This document shows, piece after piece, positions 2,697 through 14,154 of a stretch of 64,000 bases of DNA. Under the pieces are notes generated by a model. It was not told where the DNA came from. It was given only the letters and a program-made list of their open reading frames with translations, and did no database searches. The first letter of the stretch is position 1; each line of letters begins with the position of its first letter. Source of the DNA: Caldanaerobius polysaccharolyticus DSM 13641. GTDB lineage: Bacteria; Bacillota; Thermoanaerobacteria; Thermoanaerobacterales; Caldanaerobiaceae. The stretch covers positions 70,711 through 134,710 of the forward strand of contig NZ_KE386493.1 of assembly GCF_000427425.1 (NCBI RefSeq). The letters are read 5' to 3'. The position numbers and the translations under genes were made by a program.

Positions 2697-4376
2697 GTGA
2701 AGGGTAAAAAGATAGTGACTTTTTTTATCTTGGGTTTGTTTTTGATTACCATACTCTTATCAGGTTGCAAGAGCTCCAATAAACAGGCTAATGCTACTAA
2801 AAGCAGCGCTAAGAGTGAAAGCAGCAAGGAGATAAAAACGTTTACGCTATATGTAGGAGATTCAAACCAGAAGCCCATTGACCTTTCTGCTACGCCTGTG
2901 GGGAAAAAGCTCACAGAGTTAACTGGAGTCAAACTGAAAACCAGCTACATTGTAGGCAGCGATGAAAAGACAAAGGCAAATCTCATGATAACAGGAGGAG
3001 ACCTGCCTGATCTGATAGATCCCCACAACGAGTATCAAACCTTTAGGGATGCAGGGGTTTTGGTACCTCTTGATGACTACATAGAGAAGTACGGTAAAAA
3101 CATAAAAAAGTGGTACAGCCCGCAAGATCTCAACAAGATGAAAGATCCTAAAGACGGGCACATTTACTACTTAACTCCTTTCAGGAAAAGCACTACGCTT
3201 CTTTACCCCAATTCTGGTTTTTACTTACCAATGGCGGTGCTAAAGGAAGCTGGATGGCCTAAGGTAACCTCACTGGATCAGTATTTTAACATAATCGAAG
3301 ATTACGTTAAAAAACATCCCACGTACAATGGCCAGCCCACTATAGGGTTTACGGCCGATACGGATAACTGGCGAATTTACGTGCTTATCAATGTACCCAG
3401 TTACCTGGCAGGCAACCCCAATACTGGCGGCGTATGGGTAGATGACAATTACAACGCTCATTCATTTGCGTTAACCCAGTGGGCCCACGATTACTACAAA
3501 AAGCTCAACGAGGAGTGGAATAAGGGCATTGTTGACAAGCAGATGTTTACCAGAAATTATGACTCTTACAAATCGCTGATCGCCTCAGGAAGGCTCATAG
3601 GCTTTTACGATGAGAGATGGCAGATACAGGATGCTATCAACGCTTTAGAGCAGCAAAAGATGTATGACAGAGTGCCTTTTGCTATGCCGGTGGTATTTGA
3701 CGGCGTAACCAAGGAGGCTTATAACGGTATAAATATAACGGGCACAGGTGCTGGAGTATGCATAACCAAGAGCTGCAAGGACCCTGTGGCTGCGTTTAAA
3801 TTCCTTGATGCAATGGCCAGTGAAGAGGTATTGAAGTTGGTCAATTGGGGCTTTGAAGGGCAGGACTACACGGTTAAGGACGGCAAGATGTACATGACGC
3901 CTGAGCAATTAGCCAGGTTTAAAGATGCCAATTATACCCAGAAAGAAGGTATTGGATCGTTCTGGATATTCCCACACCCCGATGGAGGATCTAAGTTCTC
4001 AGACGGCAACTATGTATTCCCGCAGGATACTCCTGAATATATAAGCAGCGTATATAAGCCTTATGAGAAAGAAGTGCTACAAGCTTATAACCTGAAAAAC
4101 TTAGCAGATCTGATGGCTCCGCCGCTGGACACACCTTACGGCTATGTGTGGGATATAACCATACCCGACAGCGAACAGGAGATCAAGATCGCCCAGCAGA
4201 AGGCCTCTGATCTGACGAGAAAGTACGTGGCCAAGCTGATAATGGCAAAGCCAGGACAGTTTGAGTCCATATGGAAAGAGTATGTGGCTGAGATGAAAAA
4301 AGCGAAATACGACATAGGTGATGCGTACATTACCCAGCAGATTAAGAAGAGGGTACAGGAGTGGGGAAGTAAATAA
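2697..4376 (+). CDS. Sugar-binding lipoprotein of an ABC importer (mannan oligosaccharides likely)
   Basis: 559 residues, with a GTG start preceded by AAGGGGGA. A lipoprotein signal peptide ends in the lipobox LLSGC (Cys24), followed by a Ser/Lys/Asn-rich tether, so the protein is anchored to the outer face of the membrane. Size and pattern (GKKLTELTGVKLK, GDLPDLIDP, DAINALEQQ) fit the large LplA/YtcQ-type extracellular solute-binding family. It heads the operon with two matching permeases, a GH130 phosphorylase and a mannanase, so beta-1,4-manno-oligosaccharides are the likely ligand. I recall that a mannoside-binding protein of this species has been characterised, but cannot confirm that it is this one. 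Confidence 0.93.
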   Translation: MKGKKIVTFFILGLFLITILLSGCKSSNKQANATKSSAKSESSKEIKTFTLYVGDSNQKPIDLSATPVGKKLTELTGVKLKTSYIVGSDEKTKANLMITGGDLPDLIDPHNEYQTFRDAGVLVPLDDYIEKYGKNIKKWYSPQDLNKMKDPKDGHIYYLTPFRKSTTLLYPNSGFYLPMAVLKEAGWPKVTSLDQYFNIIEDYVKKHPTYNGQPTIGFTADTDNWRIYVLINVPSYLAGNPNTGGVWVDDNYNAHSFALTQWAHDYYKKLNEEWNKGIVDKQMFTRNYDSYKSLIASGRLIGFYDERWQIQDAINALEQQKMYDRVPFAMPVVFDGVTKEAYNGINITGTGAGVCITKSCKDPVAAFKFLDAMASEEVLKLVNWGFEGQDYTVKDGKMYMTPEQLARFKDANYTQKEGIGSFWIFPHPDGGSKFSDGNYVFPQDTPEYISSVYKPYEKEVLQAYNLKNLADLMAPPLDTPYGYVWDITIPDSEQEIKIAQQKASDLTRKYVAKLIMAKPGQFESIWKEYVAEMKKAKYDIGDAYITQQIKKRVQEWGSK

Positions 4377-4383
4377 TTGCCTT

Positions 4384-4426
4384 ATGTATAATGAAGTACA
4401 TCGTCGCGATGTACTTCATTATACAT
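4384..4426. other. Perfect 20-bp inverted repeat between binding-protein and permease genes
   Basis: Arms at 4384-4403 and 4407-4426 are exact reverse complements around a 3-base loop (TCG). No U-tract follows, so it is unlikely to be a full terminator. Strong hairpins at this position often stabilise the upstream mRNA or reduce readthrough, so that the binding protein is made in excess over the permeases. That role is inferred. Confidence 0.85.
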
Positions 4427-4451
4427 GAAATTAATATATGGAGGAGAGAAT

Positions 4452-5429
4452 ATGGCTGACATTTCCAGTAACTTAAACACAAATGCACAGATAGGAATTC
4501 CTGCCAATAAGGAGGACAGCAGAAAGATCTTTTATAAAAAGTTAAGGGAGCAGAAGGAACTGGTTTTTATCGTGCTTCCATTCTTGATATTGTTGCTCAT
4601 ATTCAGTTACATCCCATTGTGGGGTTGGATAATGGCATTTCAGGATTACAAGCCTGCATTGGGGATAAGGGGTTCTCAGTGGGTAGGCCTGCAGAACTTT
4701 AAAATGCTATTTGAGGATGCCACCTTTTATCAGGCTATAAGAAATACGCTGGGCATAAGCCTGTTAAAATACGTTATAGGTTTTGTGTCTTCTATTACAC
4801 TGGCAGTGCTTATAAACGAGGTGAGAAATATAAAATTTAAAAAGACCGTGCAGACCATATCTTATCTTCCCCACTTCGTCTCATGGGTTGTAGCTGCCAG
4901 TATAGTCCTTAATGTGCTATCGCCAGAGGGCATAATAAATGATATCCTCCTCAAGCTACACGTGGTCAAGGAATCTATAAACTTTATGGGCATACCACAG
5001 CTTTTCTGGCCTATCATGGCTATTTCTGATATGTGGAAGGAAGTTGGATGGAACTCCATCATATACCTCGCTGCTATGACCGCTATAGACAACGAACTGT
5101 ATGAGGCGGCGAGCATAGATGGAGCGGGAAGATTAAGGAAGATATTCTCTATCACGTTGCCTTCTATTGTGCCTACTATAAAAATACTGTTGATACTAAG
5201 CGCAGGATGGATATTAAACGCAGGGTTTGAACAGGTATTTTTGCTTTCAAACCCGATGGTAATAGACTATTCGCAGACCCTGGAGCTGTACGTGTACAAT
5301 TACGGTATACCTATGGGGAGATTCTCTTTCGCCACGGCTGCTGGCATATTTAATTCGGTGGTTTCTCTTGTGTTAGTTACATTTGCCAACAGGTTGTCAA
5401 AAGCCGTCAGCGGTGAAAGCGCGTTTTGA
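4452..5429 (+). CDS. ABC sugar permease, LplB type
   Basis: 325 residues from the ATG at 4452, which has GGAGGAG at 4440-4446; an in-frame ATG at 4425 lies inside the hairpin and has no ribosome site. Six hydrophobic segments follow a charged N terminus. The EAA loop, EAASIDGAGRLRKIFSITLP, contacts the ATPase in this family. It pairs with the permease at 5472 to form the import channel for the lipoprotein's ligand. No ATP-binding subunit is encoded in the window, as is usual for LplABC-type systems that share an MsmX-like ATPase encoded elsewhere. Confidence 0.94.
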   Translation: MADISSNLNTNAQIGIPANKEDSRKIFYKKLREQKELVFIVLPFLILLLIFSYIPLWGWIMAFQDYKPALGIRGSQWVGLQNFKMLFEDATFYQAIRNTLGISLLKYVIGFVSSITLAVLINEVRNIKFKKTVQTISYLPHFVSWVVAASIVLNVLSPEGIINDILLKLHVVKESINFMGIPQLFWPIMAISDMWKEVGWNSIIYLAAMTAIDNELYEAASIDGAGRLRKIFSITLPSIVPTIKILLILSAGWILNAGFEQVFLLSNPMVIDYSQTLELYVYNYGIPMGRFSFATAAGIFNSVVSLVLVTFANRLSKAVSGESAF

Positions 5430-5471
5430 GGCTTATTAGCCTCTAGATTGAGATTTCAGGAGGTTTTATAA

Positions 5472-6380
5472 ATGGCTGTAAAGACAAGAAAGATAAGCGG
5501 CAAGGCTGAGGATATAATTTTTGATACGGTCAATTACATCGTCCTTACAATCGTGATAATTGTGACATTGTATCCGTTTTTGAACGTACTGGCAGTGTCC
5601 TTTAACGACGCCATAGACTCTGTAAGGGGTGGAATCTACCTCTTTCCCAGGAAATTTACAACGTTCAATTATAAATCCATATTAACAGACCCACAGATAT
5701 ACAACGCCACCGTGATATCCGCGTTAAGAGCTATTATAGGTTCTGCGCTAAATGTTTTGTGTAGCATCGTCGTAGCCTACGCCATAAGCAGAAAGGACTT
5801 TGTGCTGAGGGGTATCATATCTAGGATATTCATATATTCCATGTACTTCAGCAGCGGTTTGATACCTTACTACCTGCTCATCAAAAACCTGCACCTTATG
5901 AACAATTTTCTGGTGTACATATTGCCCAGTATAGTAAGCGCGTGGAACATCATGGTAGTGAGAAGTTATATTGACGGGCTTCCGGTAAGTTTGATAGAAT
6001 CGGCAAAATTGGATGGCGCCAGCGAATTGAGGATCATATTTTCCATAATCTTTCCCTTGAGTGTTCCTGTTTTAGCCACTATTACGCTCTTTGTAGCGGT
6101 AGGCCAATGGAACTCGTGGTTTGACACCATGCTGTTTTGCTCGACCAATCCTCATTTGAGCACTTTACAGTACGAGCTTCAAAAGGTTTTACAATCGACC
6201 CAGCAGTTTTCCATGCAGGCTTCTTTTGACCAGGCTGTGGGGAATAAGTCCAGTGCTGTTACGCCTGAGAGCATAAGGGCCGCTATGACGATTGTGGCCA
6301 TAACCCCCATATTGTTTGTCTACCCGTTTTTACAGAAGTACTTTGTAAAAGGTCTAACCATTGGGGGAGTAAAAGGATGA
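5472..6380 (+). CDS. ABC sugar permease, LplC/YtcP type
   Basis: 302 residues; ATG with AGGAGG a few bases upstream. Six predicted membrane segments and an EAA-type loop (ESAKLDGASELRIIF), followed by the family's C-terminal ending in FVKGLTIGGVKG, which is typical of YtcP-like permeases. It forms the second half of the transmembrane channel with the product of 4452-5429. The gene lies 42 bases after the first permease gene and 33 bases before the GH130 gene, consistent with one transcript. Confidence 0.94.
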   Translation: MAVKTRKISGKAEDIIFDTVNYIVLTIVIIVTLYPFLNVLAVSFNDAIDSVRGGIYLFPRKFTTFNYKSILTDPQIYNATVISALRAIIGSALNVLCSIVVAYAISRKDFVLRGIISRIFIYSMYFSSGLIPYYLLIKNLHLMNNFLVYILPSIVSAWNIMVVRSYIDGLPVSLIESAKLDGASELRIIFSIIFPLSVPVLATITLFVAVGQWNSWFDTMLFCSTNPHLSTLQYELQKVLQSTQQFSMQASFDQAVGNKSSAVTPESIRAAMTIVAITPILFVYPFLQKYFVKGLTIGGVKG

Positions 6381-6413
6381 TATTTTATAATCAATAGGAA
6401 GGAGCGACGATGT

Positions 6414-7403
6414 ATGAGCAAACAGTTGATAGTCGGGGAGGCATTGCCCAATATACCGTGGCAGGATAGGCCAGCAGGGTGTAATGACGTAGTGTGGCGT
6501 TACCAGCAAAACCCGGTGATACCCAGAGACCTTATACCTTCATCCAACAGCATTTTTAACAGCGCTGTGGTGCCCTTTAACGGAGAATTCGCAGGGGTGT
6601 TCAGATGCGACACAAAAAGCCGCCAGATGGAGATACACAGCGGAAGGAGCAAGGACGGCCTTAACTGGGAGATAGACCATGAACGTATAAAATTTATATG
6701 CGACGATGAAGAGGTAAGCAGGTTTGTTTACGCCTACGATCCCAGGGTTTGCAAGATAGAGGACAGGTATTACATCACGTGGTGCAACGGATACCATGGC
6801 TATCCCACCATAGGCGTTGCGTATACCTACGACTTTAAAGAATTCTACCAGATGGAAAACGCCTTTTTGCCCTTTAACAGGAATGGTGTGCTGTTTCCGC
6901 GTAAGATAAAGGGTAAGTACGCGATGTTGAGCCGGCCTAGCGACAACGGGCATACGCCTTTTGGCGATATATTCTACAGCGAGAGCCCGGATATGGTGCA
7001 CTGGGGGCACCACAGGCACGTGATGTCGCCCAACAAGCCGTGGGAGAGCACCAAGATAGGAGCAGGTCCTGTGCCTATAGAGACGACGGAAGGCTGGTTG
7101 CTGTTCTACCATGGGGTTTTGACATCGTGCAACGGGTTTGTGTACAGCTTTGGAGCCGCTTTACTGGACTTAGATGAGCCGTGGAAGGTGATATACAGGG
7201 CATCGGATTACCTGCTGTCACCGCAAAAGCTGTACGAGTGCGTAGGGGATGTGCCCAATGTGGTATTTCCCACAGCGGCGTTGTACGATGCGCCCACGGG
7301 AAGGATAGCGATCTACTACGGAGCTGCGGATACGGTTACATGTCTTGCCTTCGCCAAAGTAGACGAAGTGATAGATTTTGTAAAATCCAATAACTCTCTG
7401 TGA
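6414..7403 (+). CDS. GH130 family beta-mannoside phosphorylase
   Basis: 329 residues, no signal peptide, so cytoplasmic. The five-bladed propeller family GH130 is recognisable from [41 protein letters not shown] (Asp109 is the likely general acid), [17 protein letters not shown] and [21 protein letters not shown]130 enzymes cleave beta-mannosides with phosphate to give mannose 1-phosphate, saving ATP. With a beta-1,4-mannanase and an oligosaccharide importer in the same operon, beta-1,4-manno-oligosaccharides are the probable substrate. Related thermophile GH130 enzymes act on beta-1,2-mannobiose, so linkage is not certain. Start ATG 6414 has AAGGAG upstream; an ATG at 6410 is in another frame. 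Confidence 0.92.
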
Positions 7404-7424
7404 TTTAAGGCGGTGTTTGAAAAA

Positions 7425-10400
7425 ATGAAAAAAGTTTTGTCCAAGTTGATGGTTTTTGTAATGGTATTGACTGTTGCTTTAGGCAACGGTGTATTTATCG
7501 GTGACAAGCAGGCAAAAGCTGCCGGGACTTCCGGTGATGGGCGCTTTCACGTAGTGGGCAATAAAATCGTTGACCCCGATGGAAATGATTTTGTAATCAA
7601 AGGCGTGAACATCCAGGGATACCGCTCCTGGGAGAAGAGAAGCGTCCTTCAGGATGTTCATCTGATCGCTGATGTATGGAAATTTAATACAGTGAGGCTT
7701 AACTGCTTTATCGGGCAAAACAACTGGGGGGAGGGGACTGGCGCCAATAACGATATTGACGCCATCATTAAGGCCTTTACGGCTAAAAAAGTGGTAGTAG
7801 AAATTGACCTTCACGACACCACGGGGTATCCGCCATTGAGCAATCCTCCTCCAGCGCCAGGACAGCCCAGTTTAGATCAGGCTATTGCGTGGTTTAAGGA
7901 ATTGGCCGCTAAATACAAAGACAACCCTTATGTCTGGTTTAACACCATGAATGAGCCTGGCTCGTCTACCGCTCCGCTAGACCCACAGTGGAAAGTGGCT
8001 AATGAAGAGATCATTAAAGCCATAAGGTCTACAGGGGCAGACAATATTATAGTGGTGGATGGTTGGAGCTATGCCAACGAAGGCATTGAGCAAAACACAC
8101 CTACGGTAGATGAAAAGAGAAGCGCGGTTTTGACCTACGGTCAGGATCTGTTAAACGCGGACAGTGCTAAAAACACGATTTTTGCCTTTCACAACTATAA
8201 CGAAGGCGATATCCAGAAAAAAGTTGAAGATTACATAGACAGAGCTAATGCGAAGGGCTTGTACGTGTTCATGGAGGAATACGGCAAGGATTACAGCGAT
8301 GCCGCGAAAGAAGGCGTAAAGTCTGGCTTACAGGCAGTGATGAACAAAGGTGCCGGAAGGATATATTGGAACTGGGATGGTTACGATTTATACGATCTGA
8401 CTTCAGGTACCGGAAGGGGAAGCGGTTGGGAGATCAATAAAACCGATGGGTCCAAGCCCACTAATCTGAGCTGGGTAGGGGATAAGATATGGGATGACAA
8501 TCATGGGATTACGCCGACCTTTGATGATCAAAATCCCAAGGTGGATCTTGCTCTGGAGAGATTGATCGCCAATAACAACGGGTTTAAAGCAGGCGATAAA
8601 GTCCAGTTTACCACGTTTTTACGCAATTCAGGGGATTTGCCCATTGGAAAAGATAGCAAAGTCGTTGTCAAATTTTACGTAGATGGCGTGCAGCTGGGAG
8701 ATCCTGTGGAAATCAGCGGGGGAATAGCTGTAGGCCAGAGGATACCTGTAACGTCTCCCGAACTCACTGTTTCTAAGACCGATTTTACGGTAAAAGCTGT
8801 TATAGATAGTTCAAGTACCTATGCTGATGGTGCAGAGGATGCGGTTATTGAAAACAATTGGATTGAAGCCGCGTTTAATAGCACTGCTCCTTCTTCTGGC
8901 TATGAACTGGTTGTAACCGGGATAAAAATAACTCCTGATACGGTAAAGGAAAGAGATTATGTGCAGGCTCAGGTCACGGTTGCCAATCAGGGCCCTGAGG
9001 CCACACCTGTCACAAATATAATAGGATGGTTCTACGTCAACGGCTACTATTATACGTTAGATGACGCCGCTAAATCCTGTGCAGAACAGGACAATGTGAC
9101 CTTAAAACCGGGTGAGTCAATAACTTTAAGCACAAAGGTTAAATATAGGGCGGCGGCTCCTTTTAACTTTAGTTTTGTGCTGGAAAATTTATACGCTGAT
9201 GATCAGAACCAATCTAATAACTCCATTACAGTAAACGTGCCGGTTAAGATGGGCGAAGGCGGCGTAAACATGGTGAGCAACCCGGGCTTTGAAGACGGTC
9301 TGGACAGCTGGCAAGACTGGCAGCAGGACATGAGCGCAGTGCCAGAGGCGGCTCATAATGGCGCTTTGGGGCTTAAAATAGGTGGTGGAAAGGCAGCAGG
9401 CGGTGGGCAGGATATACCGTTAAAGCCCAATACCACTTATATCTTAGGGGCATGGGCTAAATTTGACAGCAAGCCTGCAGGGACGTTTGATGTGGTGGTA
9501 CAGTATCACTTAAAGGATGCAAACAATACCTATGTCCAGCACATTTTGAATTTTAACGAGACGGATTGGACATATAAGCAGCTGCTGTTTACTACACCCG
9601 ACGTATTCGGATCAACGCCGCAGCTGGCCCTTTGGAAAGGGGATACGTCAAAAGCCAACCTGTACGTGGATGATGTATATCTCGTGGAAGTTTCCAATTT
9701 AATAGTGAACGGAACAGCAGAGAACGGGATGGACGGATGGCCTGATTGGGGTTATCCGGTTAGCGCTGTACCTGAGGCCGCTTATGGGGGCACTAAGGGG
9801 TTTAAGCTGTCAGGCGGAAAACAGGCAGGAATGGGCCAGAAAGTCGCTTTAAAGCCCAATACCACTTATATCTTAGGGGCATGGGGTAAATTTACCGCTA
9901 AACCTGGTACTTACTGCGATGTCATAGTTCAGTATCACCTGAAGGACGCCAATAATACCTATGTGCAAAACATATTGAGGTTTACTGAAACGGACTGGAC
10001 TTATAAGCAGGTCGTATTTACCACCCCTGATGCATTTGGATCAGATCCAGAATTTGTGCTGTGGAAAGATGATGCGTCAAACGCCGATTTTTACGCCGAT
10101 AATATCACGCTCGTTGAAGTACCTTCCTCTATGGTCAATAAAGGCAGTATAGCGCCGAAATTTACTGATATATCAAGCAGTTGGGCAAAAAACGAGATAC
10201 AGGTTCTCGCATCTAAAAACATAATATCGGGTTATCCTGACGGTACATTTAAGCCTGACAAGAGAATAACGAGAGCTGAATTCGTATCCATGCTTGTAAA
10301 GGCCCTGGGGATAAAGCAAAGCATACCTGATGTCCCCACCTTCAGCGATGTCAACAAGGGAGATTGGTATTATGGTTTGGTGGAAGCCGCTAAGAGTACA

Positions 10401-10718
10401 GGGATCGCATCAGGATATGGAAAGCAGTTTAAGCCTGATATGCAAATTACAAGGCAGGAAATGATGGTAATGGTTGTAAACGCCTTGAGGGTTAACAAAG
10501 TAGAAAAATTTGTATCCAAAGGCGATGTGTCGGTACTGGGCAAATTCAAAGATGGCGGCAAGGTGCAAAATTGGGCAAAAGACGCGATGGCTATAGGCGT
10601 GAGTAATGGCTTGATTAAAGGCACTGGCGATGAGTATCTGTCTCCTGACGGGAGGGCTACTAGGGCTCAAGCTGCTGCAGTGATATACAGGATGTTGTTG
10701 CAGCTTGGTAGGATATAG
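7425..10718 (+). CDS. manA: Multidomain surface mannanase: GH5, two CBM16, SLH domains
   Basis: 1,097 residues from ATG 7425; an in-frame GTG at 7413 would add four. Order: signal peptide (about 1-33); GH5 catalytic domain (about 40-360) with acid/base Glu177 in NEP and nucleophile Glu285 in MEEYG; two CARDB/Ig-like linkers (about 371-486 and 493-606); two tandem CBM16 modules (about 613-756 and 758-902); three S-layer homology segments (about 909-1093, with TRAEF, TRQEM and TRAQA). It is secreted and held on the cell wall by the SLH region, where it cuts mannan or glucomannan. The CBM16 copies share an exact 37-base DNA stretch (9420-9456 and 9849-9885). Length, order and the site TAAGGCGGTG (7406-7415) match my memory of T. 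polysaccharolyticum ManA. Confidence 0.96.
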   Translation: MKKVLSKLMVFVMVLTVALGNGVFIGDKQAKAAGTSGDGRFHVVGNKIVDPDGNDFVIKGVNIQGYRSWEKRSVLQDVHLIADVWKFNTVRLNCFIGQNNWGEGTGANNDIDAIIKAFTAKKVVVEIDLHDTTGYPPLSNPPPAPGQPSLDQAIAWFKELAAKYKDNPYVWFNTMNEPGSSTAPLDPQWKVANEEIIKAIRSTGADNIIVVDGWSYANEGIEQNTPTVDEKRSAVLTYGQDLLNADSAKNTIFAFHNYNEGDIQKKVEDYIDRANAKGLYVFMEEYGKDYSDAAKEGVKSGLQAVMNKGAGRIYWNWDGYDLYDLTSGTGRGSGWEINKTDGSKPTNLSWVGDKIWDDNHGITPTFDDQNPKVDLALERLIANNNGFKAGDKVQFTTFLRNSGDLPIGKDSKVVVKFYVDGVQLGDPVEISGGIAVGQRIPVTSPELTVSKTDFTVKAVIDSSSTYADGAEDAVIENNWIEAAFNSTAPSSGYELVVTGIKITPDTVKERDYVQAQVTVANQGPEATPVTNIIGWFYVNGYYYTLDDAAKSCAEQDNVTLKPGESITLSTKVKYRAAAPFNFSFVLENLYADDQNQSNNSITVNVPVKMGEGGVNMVSNPGFEDGLDSWQDWQQDMSAVPEAAHNGALGLKIGGGKAAGGGQDIPLKPNTTYILGAWAKFDSKPAGTFDVVVQYHLKDANNTYVQHILNFNETDWTYKQLLFTTPDVFGSTPQLALWKGDTSKANLYVDDVYLVEVSNLIVNGTAENGMDGWPDWGYPVSAVPEAAYGGTKGFKLSGGKQAGMGQKVALKPNTTYILGAWGKFTAKPGTYCDVIVQYHLKDANNTYVQNILRFTETDWTYKQVVFTTPDAFGSDPEFVLWKDDASNADFYADNITLVEVPSSMVNKGSIAPKFTDISSSWAKNEIQVLASKNIISGYPDGTFKPDKRITRAEFVSMLVKALGIKQSIPDVPTFSDVNKGDWYYGLVEAAKSTGIASGYGKQFKPDMQITRQEMMVMVVNALRVNKVEKFVSKGDVSVLGKFKDGGKVQNWAKDAMAIGVSNGLIKGTGDEYLSPDGRATRAQAAAVIYRMLLQLGRI

Positions 10719-10741
10719 CGTTGATAGTTAGGAGGTATACT

Positions 10742-12436
10742 ATGAGTTACGATAACTTCGAGTTAGCCATATATTGCACCGTACACTACCTTGAAAGTAT
10801 AAACGATATTTCTCAACTGGCGCAGGATTTTAAGCAATTTGAGAAGCACTTAAAGTGCAGCAAAGTATACCTGGAGACCTTTCGCGCGGATTTGCAAATT
10901 GGCAGGGAGAAGATGGTTAAAATAAAAGAATTTTTTAAGAACAAAGGCATAAAGGTTTCAGGCGGGATTACTACTGTAGCCCAGAAAGGATTATCGGGTT
11001 TTGCTGCATTTTGCTACACAAATTCAAAAAACAGGGAGAAGTTAAGGGATATTGTCCGGTTTACCGCCGAGTTATTTGATGAAATCATATTAGATGACTT
11101 TTTCTTTACCAATTGCAAATGCCAATCGTGCATACAAGCTAAAGGCGACAAAACGTGGAGTGAGTTCAGGACGCAGTTATTAAAAGAGGTATCCTGTGAG
11201 CTGGTAGACGCAGCCAAAGAGGTTAACCCTGATGTAAGGCTGATTATCAAATACCCCAATTGGTATGACCATTATCAGAATACAGGGTATAACTTAAAGG
11301 ATCAACCGCAGATATTTGATATGATATATACAGGAACGGAGACCAGGGATCCCAGGTACACTCAACAACATATACAGGGGTATTTGAGTTATTTTTTGAT
11401 GAGGTACATGGAAAATGCGAGCAAAGGCAGAAATGGCGGTGGATGGTTTGACAATTTGGACTGTCTCCACAACCTGGGGTATTATATGGAGCAAATTTAC
11501 CTTACGCTGTTCTCTAAAGCCAGAGAGGTCACTTTGTTTTCAATGGGATCGTTAAAGGACAGTGTTTACGTTCCTATGGCAGGATATGGTCTGGAAAAAA
11601 TTGATGAGTTTTTAGGTGAATTGGGAGACCCCGTAGGTGTTGCTTGCTATAAACCGTACCATTCTTCAGGAGAAGACAATCTGTACGATTACCTGGGCAT
11701 GTTGGGTATACCTTTTGAGCCGGTTGCTGAATTTCCGCAGGATAGCGACGTGGTCTTTCTTTCGGCCAGTGCGGCACATGATTCTAATATCGTAGACAAG
11801 ATAAAAAGCATGCTTTTGAGAGGAAAAACGGTATTTATGACATCAGGTCTCTTAGCAGAATTGCAGGATAGAGGGTTTGAGGATGTTGCCTTGATCAAAC
11901 GCACTGATAGAAAAGCGGTAGTGGATTTATTTGCTTGCGATACAAAGTCATGCGCTTTTCGGGTTTACAGCAGAGCGACTAAAAAGGTGTTGCTCTCTCA
12001 ACTGGAATACAGTACCAACGATTCATGGCCTGTTATCGTGGCGATAGATGAGAATAACAATTTCCCTGTGCTTTTAGAAACGCAGTATGGAAGAGGTTTG
12101 CTGTACGTGCTGAATATACCTGATAATTACAGCGATTTGTATCATTATCCTAGAGAGGTATTGCTTACAGTGCGGCAGCTATTAATGGAAAATATATTCG
12201 TTAAATTGGACTGTGAGAGCAGAGTAGGGTTGTTTGTGTACAACAACGATGCGTTTGTGGTTGAATCCTTTTTGCCGTATAATACAGACGTTAACATTAT
12301 TATTAATGGACCCCACGTTGGCCTGTTGAATATAATTTCGGGTAAAAAGGTAAAGGGAAATACCGTAGGTGACAAAACAATTTTTACGGTAAATATAGAA
12401 CCTACTGCGTATTGCGTGTACAAGTGCATAAAATAA
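10742..12436 (+). CDS. Unassigned protein with glycosidase-like (beta/alpha)8 plus GATase-like layout
   Basis: 567 residues from ATG 10742, which has AGGAGG at 10730-10735; an in-frame TTG at 10721 lies before that site. I recognise no named family. Eight strand-like segments can be followed through the first 275 residues (for example VYLETF, EIILDDFFF, RLIIKYP, FDMIYTGTETRD, GGWFDNLD, EVTLFSMGS), suggesting a TIM barrel with acidic residues at strand ends. A Rossmann/GATase-like stretch follows (VVFLSASAAHDSNIVDKI, then GKTVFMTSG), then a beta-rich tail. This is the layout of GH42-type glycosidases. A cluster NCKCQSC follows strand 4. No signal peptide. It is the last gene of the mannan operon, 23 bases after manA, so a cytoplasmic role on manno-oligosaccharides is likely but unproven. 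Confidence 0.8.
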   Translation: MSYDNFELAIYCTVHYLESINDISQLAQDFKQFEKHLKCSKVYLETFRADLQIGREKMVKIKEFFKNKGIKVSGGITTVAQKGLSGFAAFCYTNSKNREKLRDIVRFTAELFDEIILDDFFFTNCKCQSCIQAKGDKTWSEFRTQLLKEVSCELVDAAKEVNPDVRLIIKYPNWYDHYQNTGYNLKDQPQIFDMIYTGTETRDPRYTQQHIQGYLSYFLMRYMENASKGRNGGGWFDNLDCLHNLGYYMEQIYLTLFSKAREVTLFSMGSLKDSVYVPMAGYGLEKIDEFLGELGDPVGVACYKPYHSSGEDNLYDYLGMLGIPFEPVAEFPQDSDVVFLSASAAHDSNIVDKIKSMLLRGKTVFMTSGLLAELQDRGFEDVALIKRTDRKAVVDLFACDTKSCAFRVYSRATKKVLLSQLEYSTNDSWPVIVAIDENNNFPVLLETQYGRGLLYVLNIPDNYSDLYHYPREVLLTVRQLLMENIFVKLDCESRVGLFVYNNDAFVVESFLPYNTDVNIIINGPHVGLLNIISGKKVKGNTVGDKTIFTVNIEPTAYCVYKCIK

Positions 12437-12463
12437 AAAAGGAAATAAAATTTAAAAATTGGG

Positions 12464-12491
12464 GCCTTGCTCTATGAAGAGCAGGGCTTTT
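12464..12491 (+). terminator. Intrinsic terminator of the mannan operon
   Basis: Ten-base-pair stem with one G-U pair (12464-12473 with 12478-12487), loop ATGA, then TTTT. It sits 28 bases after the last operon gene. Confidence 0.85.
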
Positions 12492-12567: not shown

Positions 12568-14154
12568 ATGTCAAATAGTCGCGAAAACTGGGGATCAAAA
12601 ATCGGCCTTATATTAGCAATGGCAGGAAATGCAGTAGGGCTGGGAAACTTTTGGAGGTATCCTTATCTGGCTGCCTCTAATGGCGGCGGGGCTTTTATGA
12701 TTCCGTACATAGCTGCCATAATTGTTTTGGGTATACCTATTTTACTGGTTGAATGGAATCTAGGAAGGTATGGAAGCAAATACGGCTATGGCACTATAGG
12801 ACCATTGATATACCTTCAGGCCAGGGAAAGCGTCAAGCCTAGATATGCCCTTATATTTGGCTCGGTTTGCGGTATGCTCGCATTTGTAGTGACAATATTG
12901 ATAAATTCCTATTATAATCATATAATAGGTTGGACGCTAGGTTACAGTTACCTTTCAGCTATCGGTACTTACATAAACAACGATATATCTACAGGGGAAT
13001 TGTTTGCAAGGTATATACAGTCTCCCAGCTTAGAACTTACGTTCTGGATTATTGCCGTGGCAGCATTAGGCCTTGCTGTAATGAAGGGTATCCAGCACGG
13101 TATTGAGGTATGGTCAAAGATAATGATGCCTGTTCTTTACGTTTTTGGAATAATACTTGCCATAAGGTCTCTGACCATAGGAAGTCCTGTAAGGCCGGAT
13201 TGGTCAGCAATAAAAGGGCTAAATTACTTATGGAATCCGGATTGGAGCAAGTTGACATGGCAGACAGCTCTAAAGGCATCGGGACAGGTATTTTACACCC
13301 TCTCATTAGGCATGGGTATAATACCTAATTATGCGTCGTACCTTAAGTCGGATGATGATATAGTTTTGTCAGGTATTACTACGGCATCTTTAAACGAGTT
13401 TGCCGAAGTTATATTGGGAGGTTCTATAGTCATTCCTATAGCTTACGCATTCTTGGGTCCTAAGGGCTTAGGATCAGGTATAGGCCTGTCGTTTATATCC
13501 CTTCCCAACATCTTCAGGAATATGAGCGGTGGGCAGATATTTGGAACTTTATGGTTTTTGCTGTTATTCTTTGCCGGGTTTACATCAGCTGTTGCCATGT
13601 ACAATTACCTTACCACTCTACTGGATGAAGACCTTGGAATTGGTAGGAGATTTGCATCTTTCGTGGTATTTATGCTGTATATAATAAGTGGTCTACCGGT
13701 AGGGCTGGAGCCTATTTTGACCGGCACATCAAATCTCGTTTACTTTACTGAGCTGGACAACTGGGTAGGGAGCTATGTTATACTCGTTTTGGGGATGTTG
13801 GAAATGATAGCAGGTGCATGGTTTTTCGGGAAGAGGTGGCTTGACGAGACTAATAAAGGATCTTACTGGAAAGTAAAACCATGGTTTTTCAATATATTTG
13901 TAAGGGTTGCCTCTCCATTGCTTTTGATAACCTTGATAGTGTTTTCTACAATGGATTATATACGGCAAGGGTATTTTAAATGGGTGCCTTCATTTGTGGA
14001 AAGTACACCTCAACTTATTCCATGGGTTCAGGCTGCGAGAATTGTTCTGTTGCTTGTAGGCGTAATAGGGTTTGTAGAATCTTATATGTCGATTAAGCAA
14101 AAGTATTATAGGGAAATAGCCAAGAACAAAAAACTGGATGAATTGGCTGCGTGA
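12568..14154 (+). CDS. Sodium-dependent transporter, NSS/SNF family
   Basis: 528 residues, about twelve membrane segments. The family signature is at the N terminus (GLILAMAGNAVGLGNFWRYPYLAASNGGGAF), which forms the sodium and substrate site in unwound helix 1 of LeuT-like proteins. Bacterial members import amino acids with Na+. It is followed after 24 bases by a 35-residue membrane peptide gene of MetS type, which points to the MetPS subgroup (methionine/alanine uptake). The ribosome site AAAGGAG is rather far (about 15 bases) from the ATG. Substrate is inferred. Confidence 0.92.
   Translation: MSNSRENWGSKIGLILAMAGNAVGLGNFWRYPYLAASNGGGAFMIPYIAAIIVLGIPILLVEWNLGRYGSKYGYGTIGPLIYLQARESVKPRYALIFGSVCGMLAFVVTILINSYYNHIIGWTLGYSYLSAIGTYINNDISTGELFARYIQSPSLELTFWIIAVAALGLAVMKGIQHGIEVWSKIMMPVLYVFGIILAIRSLTIGSPVRPDWSAIKGLNYLWNPDWSKLTWQTALKASGQVFYTLSLGMGIIPNYASYLKSDDDIVLSGITTASLNEFAEVILGGSIVIPIAYAFLGPKGLGSGIGLSFISLPNIFRNMSGGQIFGTLWFLLLFFAGFTSAVAMYNYLTTLLDEDLGIGRRFASFVVFMLYIISGLPVGLEPILTGTSNLVYFTELDNWVGSYVILVLGMLEMIAGAWFFGKRWLDETNKGSYWKVKPWFFNIFVRVASPLLLITLIVFSTMDYIRQGYFKWVPSFVESTPQLIPWVQAARIVLLLVGVIGFVESYMSIKQKYYREIAKNKKLDELAA

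Follow-up and report, generated by a model that had tools for sequence, protein, structure and literature searches.

An undescribed glycoside-hydrolase-like family with GH42-type architecture, encoded at the end of a probable mannan operon in Caldanaerobius polysaccharolyticus

GH42 enzymes (PF02449/PF08532/PF08533) combine a barrel, a trimerisation-type domain and a beta domain, and carry an Asn-Glu acid/base motif on barrel strand 4 and a nucleophile Glu on strand 7. The beta-mannosidase Bs164 of family GH164 shares this architecture and uses Glu160 on strand 4 and Glu297 on strand 7 (PMC7105311). A different layout is found in GH151, where the nucleophile is Asp154 on strand 4 and the acid/base is Glu235 at the end of strand 6 (PMC10154630); in the 6tvk chain we infer these to be Asp183 and Glu264, through a numbering shift of 29. 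Finally, the GHL10 protein Cwp19 (PF02638) is a peptidoglycan enzyme that consists of the barrel only and has an Asp-Asp-aromatic-Phe sequence after strand 4, with no catalytic Glu on strand 7.

The protein studied here is encoded in a 64,000-nucleotide stretch of the Caldanaerobius polysaccharolyticus DSM 13641 genome (hereafter the window), downstream of an ABC importer, a GH130 and a GH5 gene (Table 1). A first-pass annotation had located its reading frame correctly, as judged from the ATG, the AGGAGG before it and the stop codon, and had placed it at the end of a mannan operon. The 567 residues it had counted are in fact 564, or 571 from the alternative start TTG 10721, and the glutamate it had numbered 208 from that TTG is Glu207, which is Glu200 in the numbering from ATG 10742 used throughout. 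The terminal position was borne out, with the gene starting 23 bases after the GH5 stop codon and a terminator-like stem following it. The nearest solved proteins of the operon GH130 are beta-1,4-mannooligosaccharide and mannosyl-glycan phosphorylases, and the GH5 protein aligns with solved CBM16 domains (2zew-2zez and 3oea/3oeb) over their entire length. These solved domains are labelled 'S-layer associated multidomain endoglucanase' and presumably belong to Man5A of Caldanaerobius polysaccharolyticus itself, an organism whose use of mannan was reportedly the subject of a 2014 study. Because of the GH130 and GH5/CBM16 matches, the unit running from the ABC importer through GH130 and GH5 to the family gene was assigned as probably a mannan operon. 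On the 3' side of its terminator (window 12568-14154) lies a transporter of the sodium:neurotransmitter-symporter family, apparently unrelated to the operon.

Table 1. Features of the operon and of the family protein (window positions; residues counted from ATG 10742)
Feature	Position	Strand	Evidence or remark
ABC importer, solute-binding protein	2697-4376	+	importer genes together 2697..6380
ABC importer, two permeases	4425-5429, 5472-6380	+	
GH130, beta-1,4-mannooligosaccharide phosphorylase type	6414..7403	+	
GH5 + 2 CBM16 + SLH surface mannanase	7413..10718	+	CBM match
Ribosome-binding site AGGAGG	10730..10735	+	6 bases 5' of ATG 10742; direct reading
Family gene	10742..12436	+	ORF: ATG 10742, stop 12434-12436, 564 aa
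(beta/alpha)8 barrel, residues 1-292	10742..11617	+	model and fold matches
Strand 2 end, Glu45 and Arg48	10874..10885	+	alignments; Glu45 invariant, Arg48 nearly invariant; CHHG here in GH151 fucosidases
Asp118-Asp119, strand 4 end (ILDDFFF), candidate catalytic Asp	11093..11098	+	invariant; D118 aligns with GH151 nucleophile Asp
C-x-C-x-x-C (Cys125, Cys127, Cys130), after strand 4	11114..11131	+	at least 90% conserved
Glu200 after strand 6 (GTETRD), candidate acid/base	11339..11341	+	invariant; GH151 analogy
Trp235-Phe236-Asp237, strand 7 end (GWFDNLD), alternative catalytic acid	11444..11452	+	W235 and D237 invariant
GATase-like (GH42M-type) middle domain with long beta insertion, residues 293-481	11618..12184	+	model and fold matches
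C-terminal beta domain, residues 487-564	12200..12433	+	model
Strong terminator-like hairpin, 13-pair stem	12461..12490	+	25 bases 3' of family gene, at operon end

An AlphaFold2 model built on an alignment of 73 family sequences reached a pLDDT of 95.2 and a pTM of 0.93; the model from the single sequence was poor (pLDDT 39.9) and was set aside. The predicted fold is almost certainly a TIM barrel, with strands at residues 7-12, 41-48, 71-77, 114-117, 166-171, 194-198, 231-237 and 262-266, followed by a GATase-like middle domain and a beta tail, as had been read from the sequence at the outset. The best Foldseek hits were all three-domain glycosidases matched over the full length at 10-12% identity, with E-values of 3e-23 for GH42 beta-galactosidases and 2.5e-21 for GH164. 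VIA-align gave Z-scores of about 22 over 491-524 residues for GH42 and GH164 (515 for GH164) and of 19.6 over 523 residues for GH151 (6tvk), and full-length identity to the three families was 10-13%. The highest Z-score, 23.8, was obtained for the barrel of Cwp19 alone, with an rmsd of 3.4 over 274 residues. The model and these searches thus show the GH42 arrangement of barrel, trimerisation-type domain and beta domain, and they uphold the GH42-like domain order that had been proposed; the two results named beforehand as fatal to that proposal, a confident match to a non-glycosidase family and a structure lacking a TIM barrel, did not appear.

The protein had been described as impossible to place, and database searches agreed. 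The 564-residue sequence matched nothing in Pfam-A, NCBIfam or the PDB sequences, and searching the PDB sequences with two family profiles returned scattered chance hits only and no solved relative. When relatives, 15 and then 73 of them, were scanned singly against the curated families, weak Pfam names turned up here and there (Spc7, PcrB, DUF4350 and others), and these scattered hits were rejected as chance. Neither the protein nor any of the 73 relatives matched PF02449, PF14871 or PF02638; no CAZy family number for the family was found in the literature searched, and tblastn against plasmids found nothing. By contrast with this absence of named relatives, at least 556 relatives were found in GTDB contigs, the best of them 40-59% identical. 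The best 80 of these came from Bacillota, Bacteroidota, Acidobacteriota, Chloroflexota, Spirochaetota, Planctomycetota, Verrucomicrobiota, Neomarinimicrobiota and Ignavibacteria, and from the archaeal groups Brockarchaeota and Bathyarchaeota. The reading frame is not a product of chance: many phyla have full-length relatives at this level of identity, and D118, D119, E200 and D237 are invariant in the 73 sequences. The family was matched in 17 of 37 genomes of the source organism's class and in 20 of 398 genomes drawn evenly from its phylum. Its border was sharp in a profile search of 149 genomes, in which full members scored E < 1e-170 and the next other match 0.05, the sole intermediate (E 6e-36) being a fragment at a contig edge. 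Some relatives look broken (L103, L110 and L017-L019): the reading frames at L103 and L110 are interrupted, and genomes G002 and G006 keep the gene as shortened remnants.

The protein thus represents a glycoside-hydrolase-like family within the GH42/GH151/GHL superfamily that is undescribed in Pfam-A, NCBIfam, the PDB sequences and the literature searched. It is on balance, by a narrow judgement, a new CAZy-level family of at least 8 bacterial phyla plus archaea, in which a GH42 architecture has the GH-A Glu/Glu pair replaced by a strand-4 Asp-Asp and a strand-6 Glu, linking GH42 to the GH151/GHL barrels, with an activity assigned to no gene so far. Its hundreds of members are carried by plant-biomass degraders of hot, rumen, termite-gut and soil habitats and, as no Pfam or NCBIfam model covers them, are probably labelled hypothetical and overlooked when carbohydrate enzymes are counted.

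Sequence and neighbours together make it very likely that the family protein is an enzyme acting on sugars. For the source organism, the reading we favour, at a probability of about 60%, is a cytoplasmic, probably homotrimeric exo-glycosidase that would trim imported mannanase products. The surface GH5 mannanase would release oligosaccharides for uptake by the ABC transporter, the family enzyme would remove a terminal or side-chain sugar from them in the cytoplasm, and this trimming would let GH130 phosphorolyse the backbone. That the substrate here is mannan or one of its side groups is a tentative assignment, held at somewhat less than even odds. A role as the missing alpha-galactosidase was also considered and was weakened by a GH36 encoded elsewhere in the genome.

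The gene neighbourhoods of relatives bear directly on the substrate. Outside the source operon the family gene and GH130 are unlinked: no neighbour cluster containing the window's GH130 extends to as many as three loci, a sister genome of the same genus (G014) has neither gene, and most genomes of genus g7 have both far apart on the chromosome. At three loci (L120-L122), whose kinship suggests Thermoanaerobacterium, the gene order is GH1, LacI, permeases, binding protein, family gene, GH29, GH42, GH31 and GH51, and these operons look like ones for xyloglucan use. A GH31 gene lies directly upstream of the family gene at L042 and L043 and, by clustering, at L039. In Caldicellulosiruptor-like genomes the family gene is solitary, with GH28 and nitroreductase genes nearby and no link to mannan. 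The enzymes seen most often in a set of 104 likely operon partners were GH31 (5), GH2 (4), GH5 (4) and a GlcNAc-2-epimerase-type protein (3), and many partners were unrelated to sugars.

Such mixed surroundings (a xyloglucan-like operon, GH28, GH31, GH59, GH13, MatE, AraC regulators or nothing at all), together with the failure of the window's GH130 to recur, favour a glycosidase with a non-mannan substrate, such as an alpha-glycosidase acting on a plant glycoside or on the side chains of xyloglucan or pectin. We regard this as a substantial possibility, if one short of an even chance, given the tight spacing of the gene inside the mannan operon with a terminator at its end, and given relatives that accompany GH5 and a GlcNAc-2-epimerase-type protein (L050, L111 and, by clustering, L107) or lie near GH26 (L112). 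As a mannan-specific function, the oligomannoside or side-group role first suggested for the protein is weakly supported, and across the family such a role is not supported. Trimming of imported mannanase products remains our preferred reading for the source organism; elsewhere the family would process oligosaccharides from other hemicelluloses, working in the cytoplasm in Bacillota and in the periplasm in Bacteroidota and Acidobacteriota.

Nine residues were invariant in the 73 sequences, namely Y43, E45, D118, D119, K170, E200, R202, W235 and D237, and they include the acids to which the first-pass annotation had drawn attention in ILDDFFF, GTETRD and GWFDNLD. The Glu/Glu pair of clan GH-A is absent from all 73, which have Asp on strands 4 and 7 instead. 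The family resembles GH42 in its three domains and in weak profile similarity, but is about 110 residues shorter, has Asp118-Asp119 where GH42 has the strand-4 Asn-Glu acid/base, and shows WFD with Asp237 in place of the strand-7 nucleophile Glu. The statement that GH42 motifs are lacking accordingly held for the catalytic motifs and not for the C-x-C-x-x-C after strand 4, which is shared with both GH42 and GH151 and is probably a structural metal site. Membership of GH164, suggested by the mannan context and the fold, was ruled out by sequence and by the lack of the catalytic Glu residues on strands 4 and 7; nor did the protein or either family profile find Bs164 among the PDB sequences.

Profile comparisons, made by pairwise hhalign and not database-calibrated, gave a probability of 95 (E 2.7e-8) against a GHL6/GH151 set and of 70-80 against GH42. 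The first alignment paired D118 with the strand-4 Asp and C125, C127 and C130 with the GH151 cysteines; the second paired the CYxN...R..IV..A helix and the Cys motif. By this measure the barrel's closer relatives are the GHL6/GHL10/GH151 group with its strand-4 Asp, not clan GH-A. The spacing of 7 from D118 to C125 equals that in GH151 (FFDI, then C-x-C-x-x-C), and Glu200, which follows strand 6, may correspond to the GH151 acid/base; this mapping comes from the spacing of motifs and from aligned profiles rather than from superposed coordinates. A further likeness to GH151/GHL6 (PF14871, e.g. 6tvk) is the GH42-type middle domain. Membership of the GH151 fucosidases was nevertheless ruled out, with no PF14871 match, no His-His motif and a GH151-only profile that aligned the middle domain alone (the GH151 barrel profile reached a probability of 39%). 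The family has YLETxR where these fucosidases have CHHG after strand 2, and fucose is an unlikely substrate because CHHG is absent.

On the strength of the GH151 profile and spacing match, we prefer a centre of Asp118 and Glu200 over its main rival, Asp119 and Asp237, to which the DD motif of Cwp19 points. Asp118/Glu200 tentatively fits the GH151 layout better, and the most likely chemistry, put forward with similar reserve, would be a retaining one in which Asp118 is the nucleophile and Glu200 the acid/base. The rival pair would belong to a GH-A-like beta-glycosidase in which both Glu residues have become Asp, Asp119 serving as acid/base and Asp237 as nucleophile; this could be an exo-beta-mannosidase, for instance, or a beta-glucosidase, with manno- or glucomanno-oligosaccharides as its substrates. 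The best whole-length folds, GH42 and the beta-mannosidase GH164 with its same architecture and Glu on strands 4 and 7 (PMC7105311), are in keeping with such an enzyme. So are two further features: D237 is invariant and closes strand 7 at its C-terminal end, and in Cwp19 a similar DD motif has its second Asp where GH-A has the acid/base (PMC5765458). The rival is unlikely all the same: GH-A families carry Glu at both places and an exchange of both for Asp would be unusual, the invariant strand-6 E200 would go unexplained, and the profile match to GHL6/GH151 outranks that to GH42. Cwp19 itself shares with the family the Asp-Asp-aromatic-Phe sequence after strand 4 and the lack of a catalytic strand-7 Glu, but differs in having no GATase-like or beta domain and, in the aligned part, no Cys motif. 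A silent or regulatory TIM-barrel protein, or another enzyme class such as an esterase or transferase on a borrowed GH42-like fold, is improbable, for while GATase-like and TIM-barrel folds serve many enzymes, the family's barrel mouth is dense with the invariant charged and aromatic residues listed above and its glycosidase-rich operons point to a sugar-acting enzyme.

With a GH151-like Asp118/Glu200 centre preferred, the combination of GH42 architecture and GH151-like acids bears on the kinship between GH-A and the glycosidases with Asp on strand 4. The activity is directly testable, since a confident model is available with named candidate catalytic residues.

The cytoplasmic location proposed for the source organism was supported, and location varied across the family. 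By a simple hydropathy test, with phyla taken from record titles and counts therefore approximate, an export-type hydrophobic N-terminus was found in 8/8 Bacteroidota, 6/7 Acidobacteriota and single members of other diderm phyla, against 1/41 Bacillota, 0/6 Chloroflexota and 0/4 archaea. Export in diderms and a cytoplasmic location in monoderms thus divide the family cleanly according to envelope type (L046, L047, L064, L068, L083, L084, L091 and others). This pattern suggests one enzymatic step that diderms would carry out in the periplasm and oligosaccharide-importing monoderms in the cytoplasm.

Two further observations concern the source genome. Its GH151/GHL6 alpha-fucosidase is encoded by two abutting reading frames (L225:3989-5979; G000:C2:318089-320043), one for the barrel and one for the middle and C-terminal part, which reflects either a frameshift or a truly split gene. 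The operon GH130 (window 6395-7392) has a second copy (L223:9003-10000; G000:C2:1052806-1053786) that is 98.5% identical in DNA and adjoins another ABC transporter; the similarity breaks off roughly where the gene does, which suggests that the gene was copied or converted recently.
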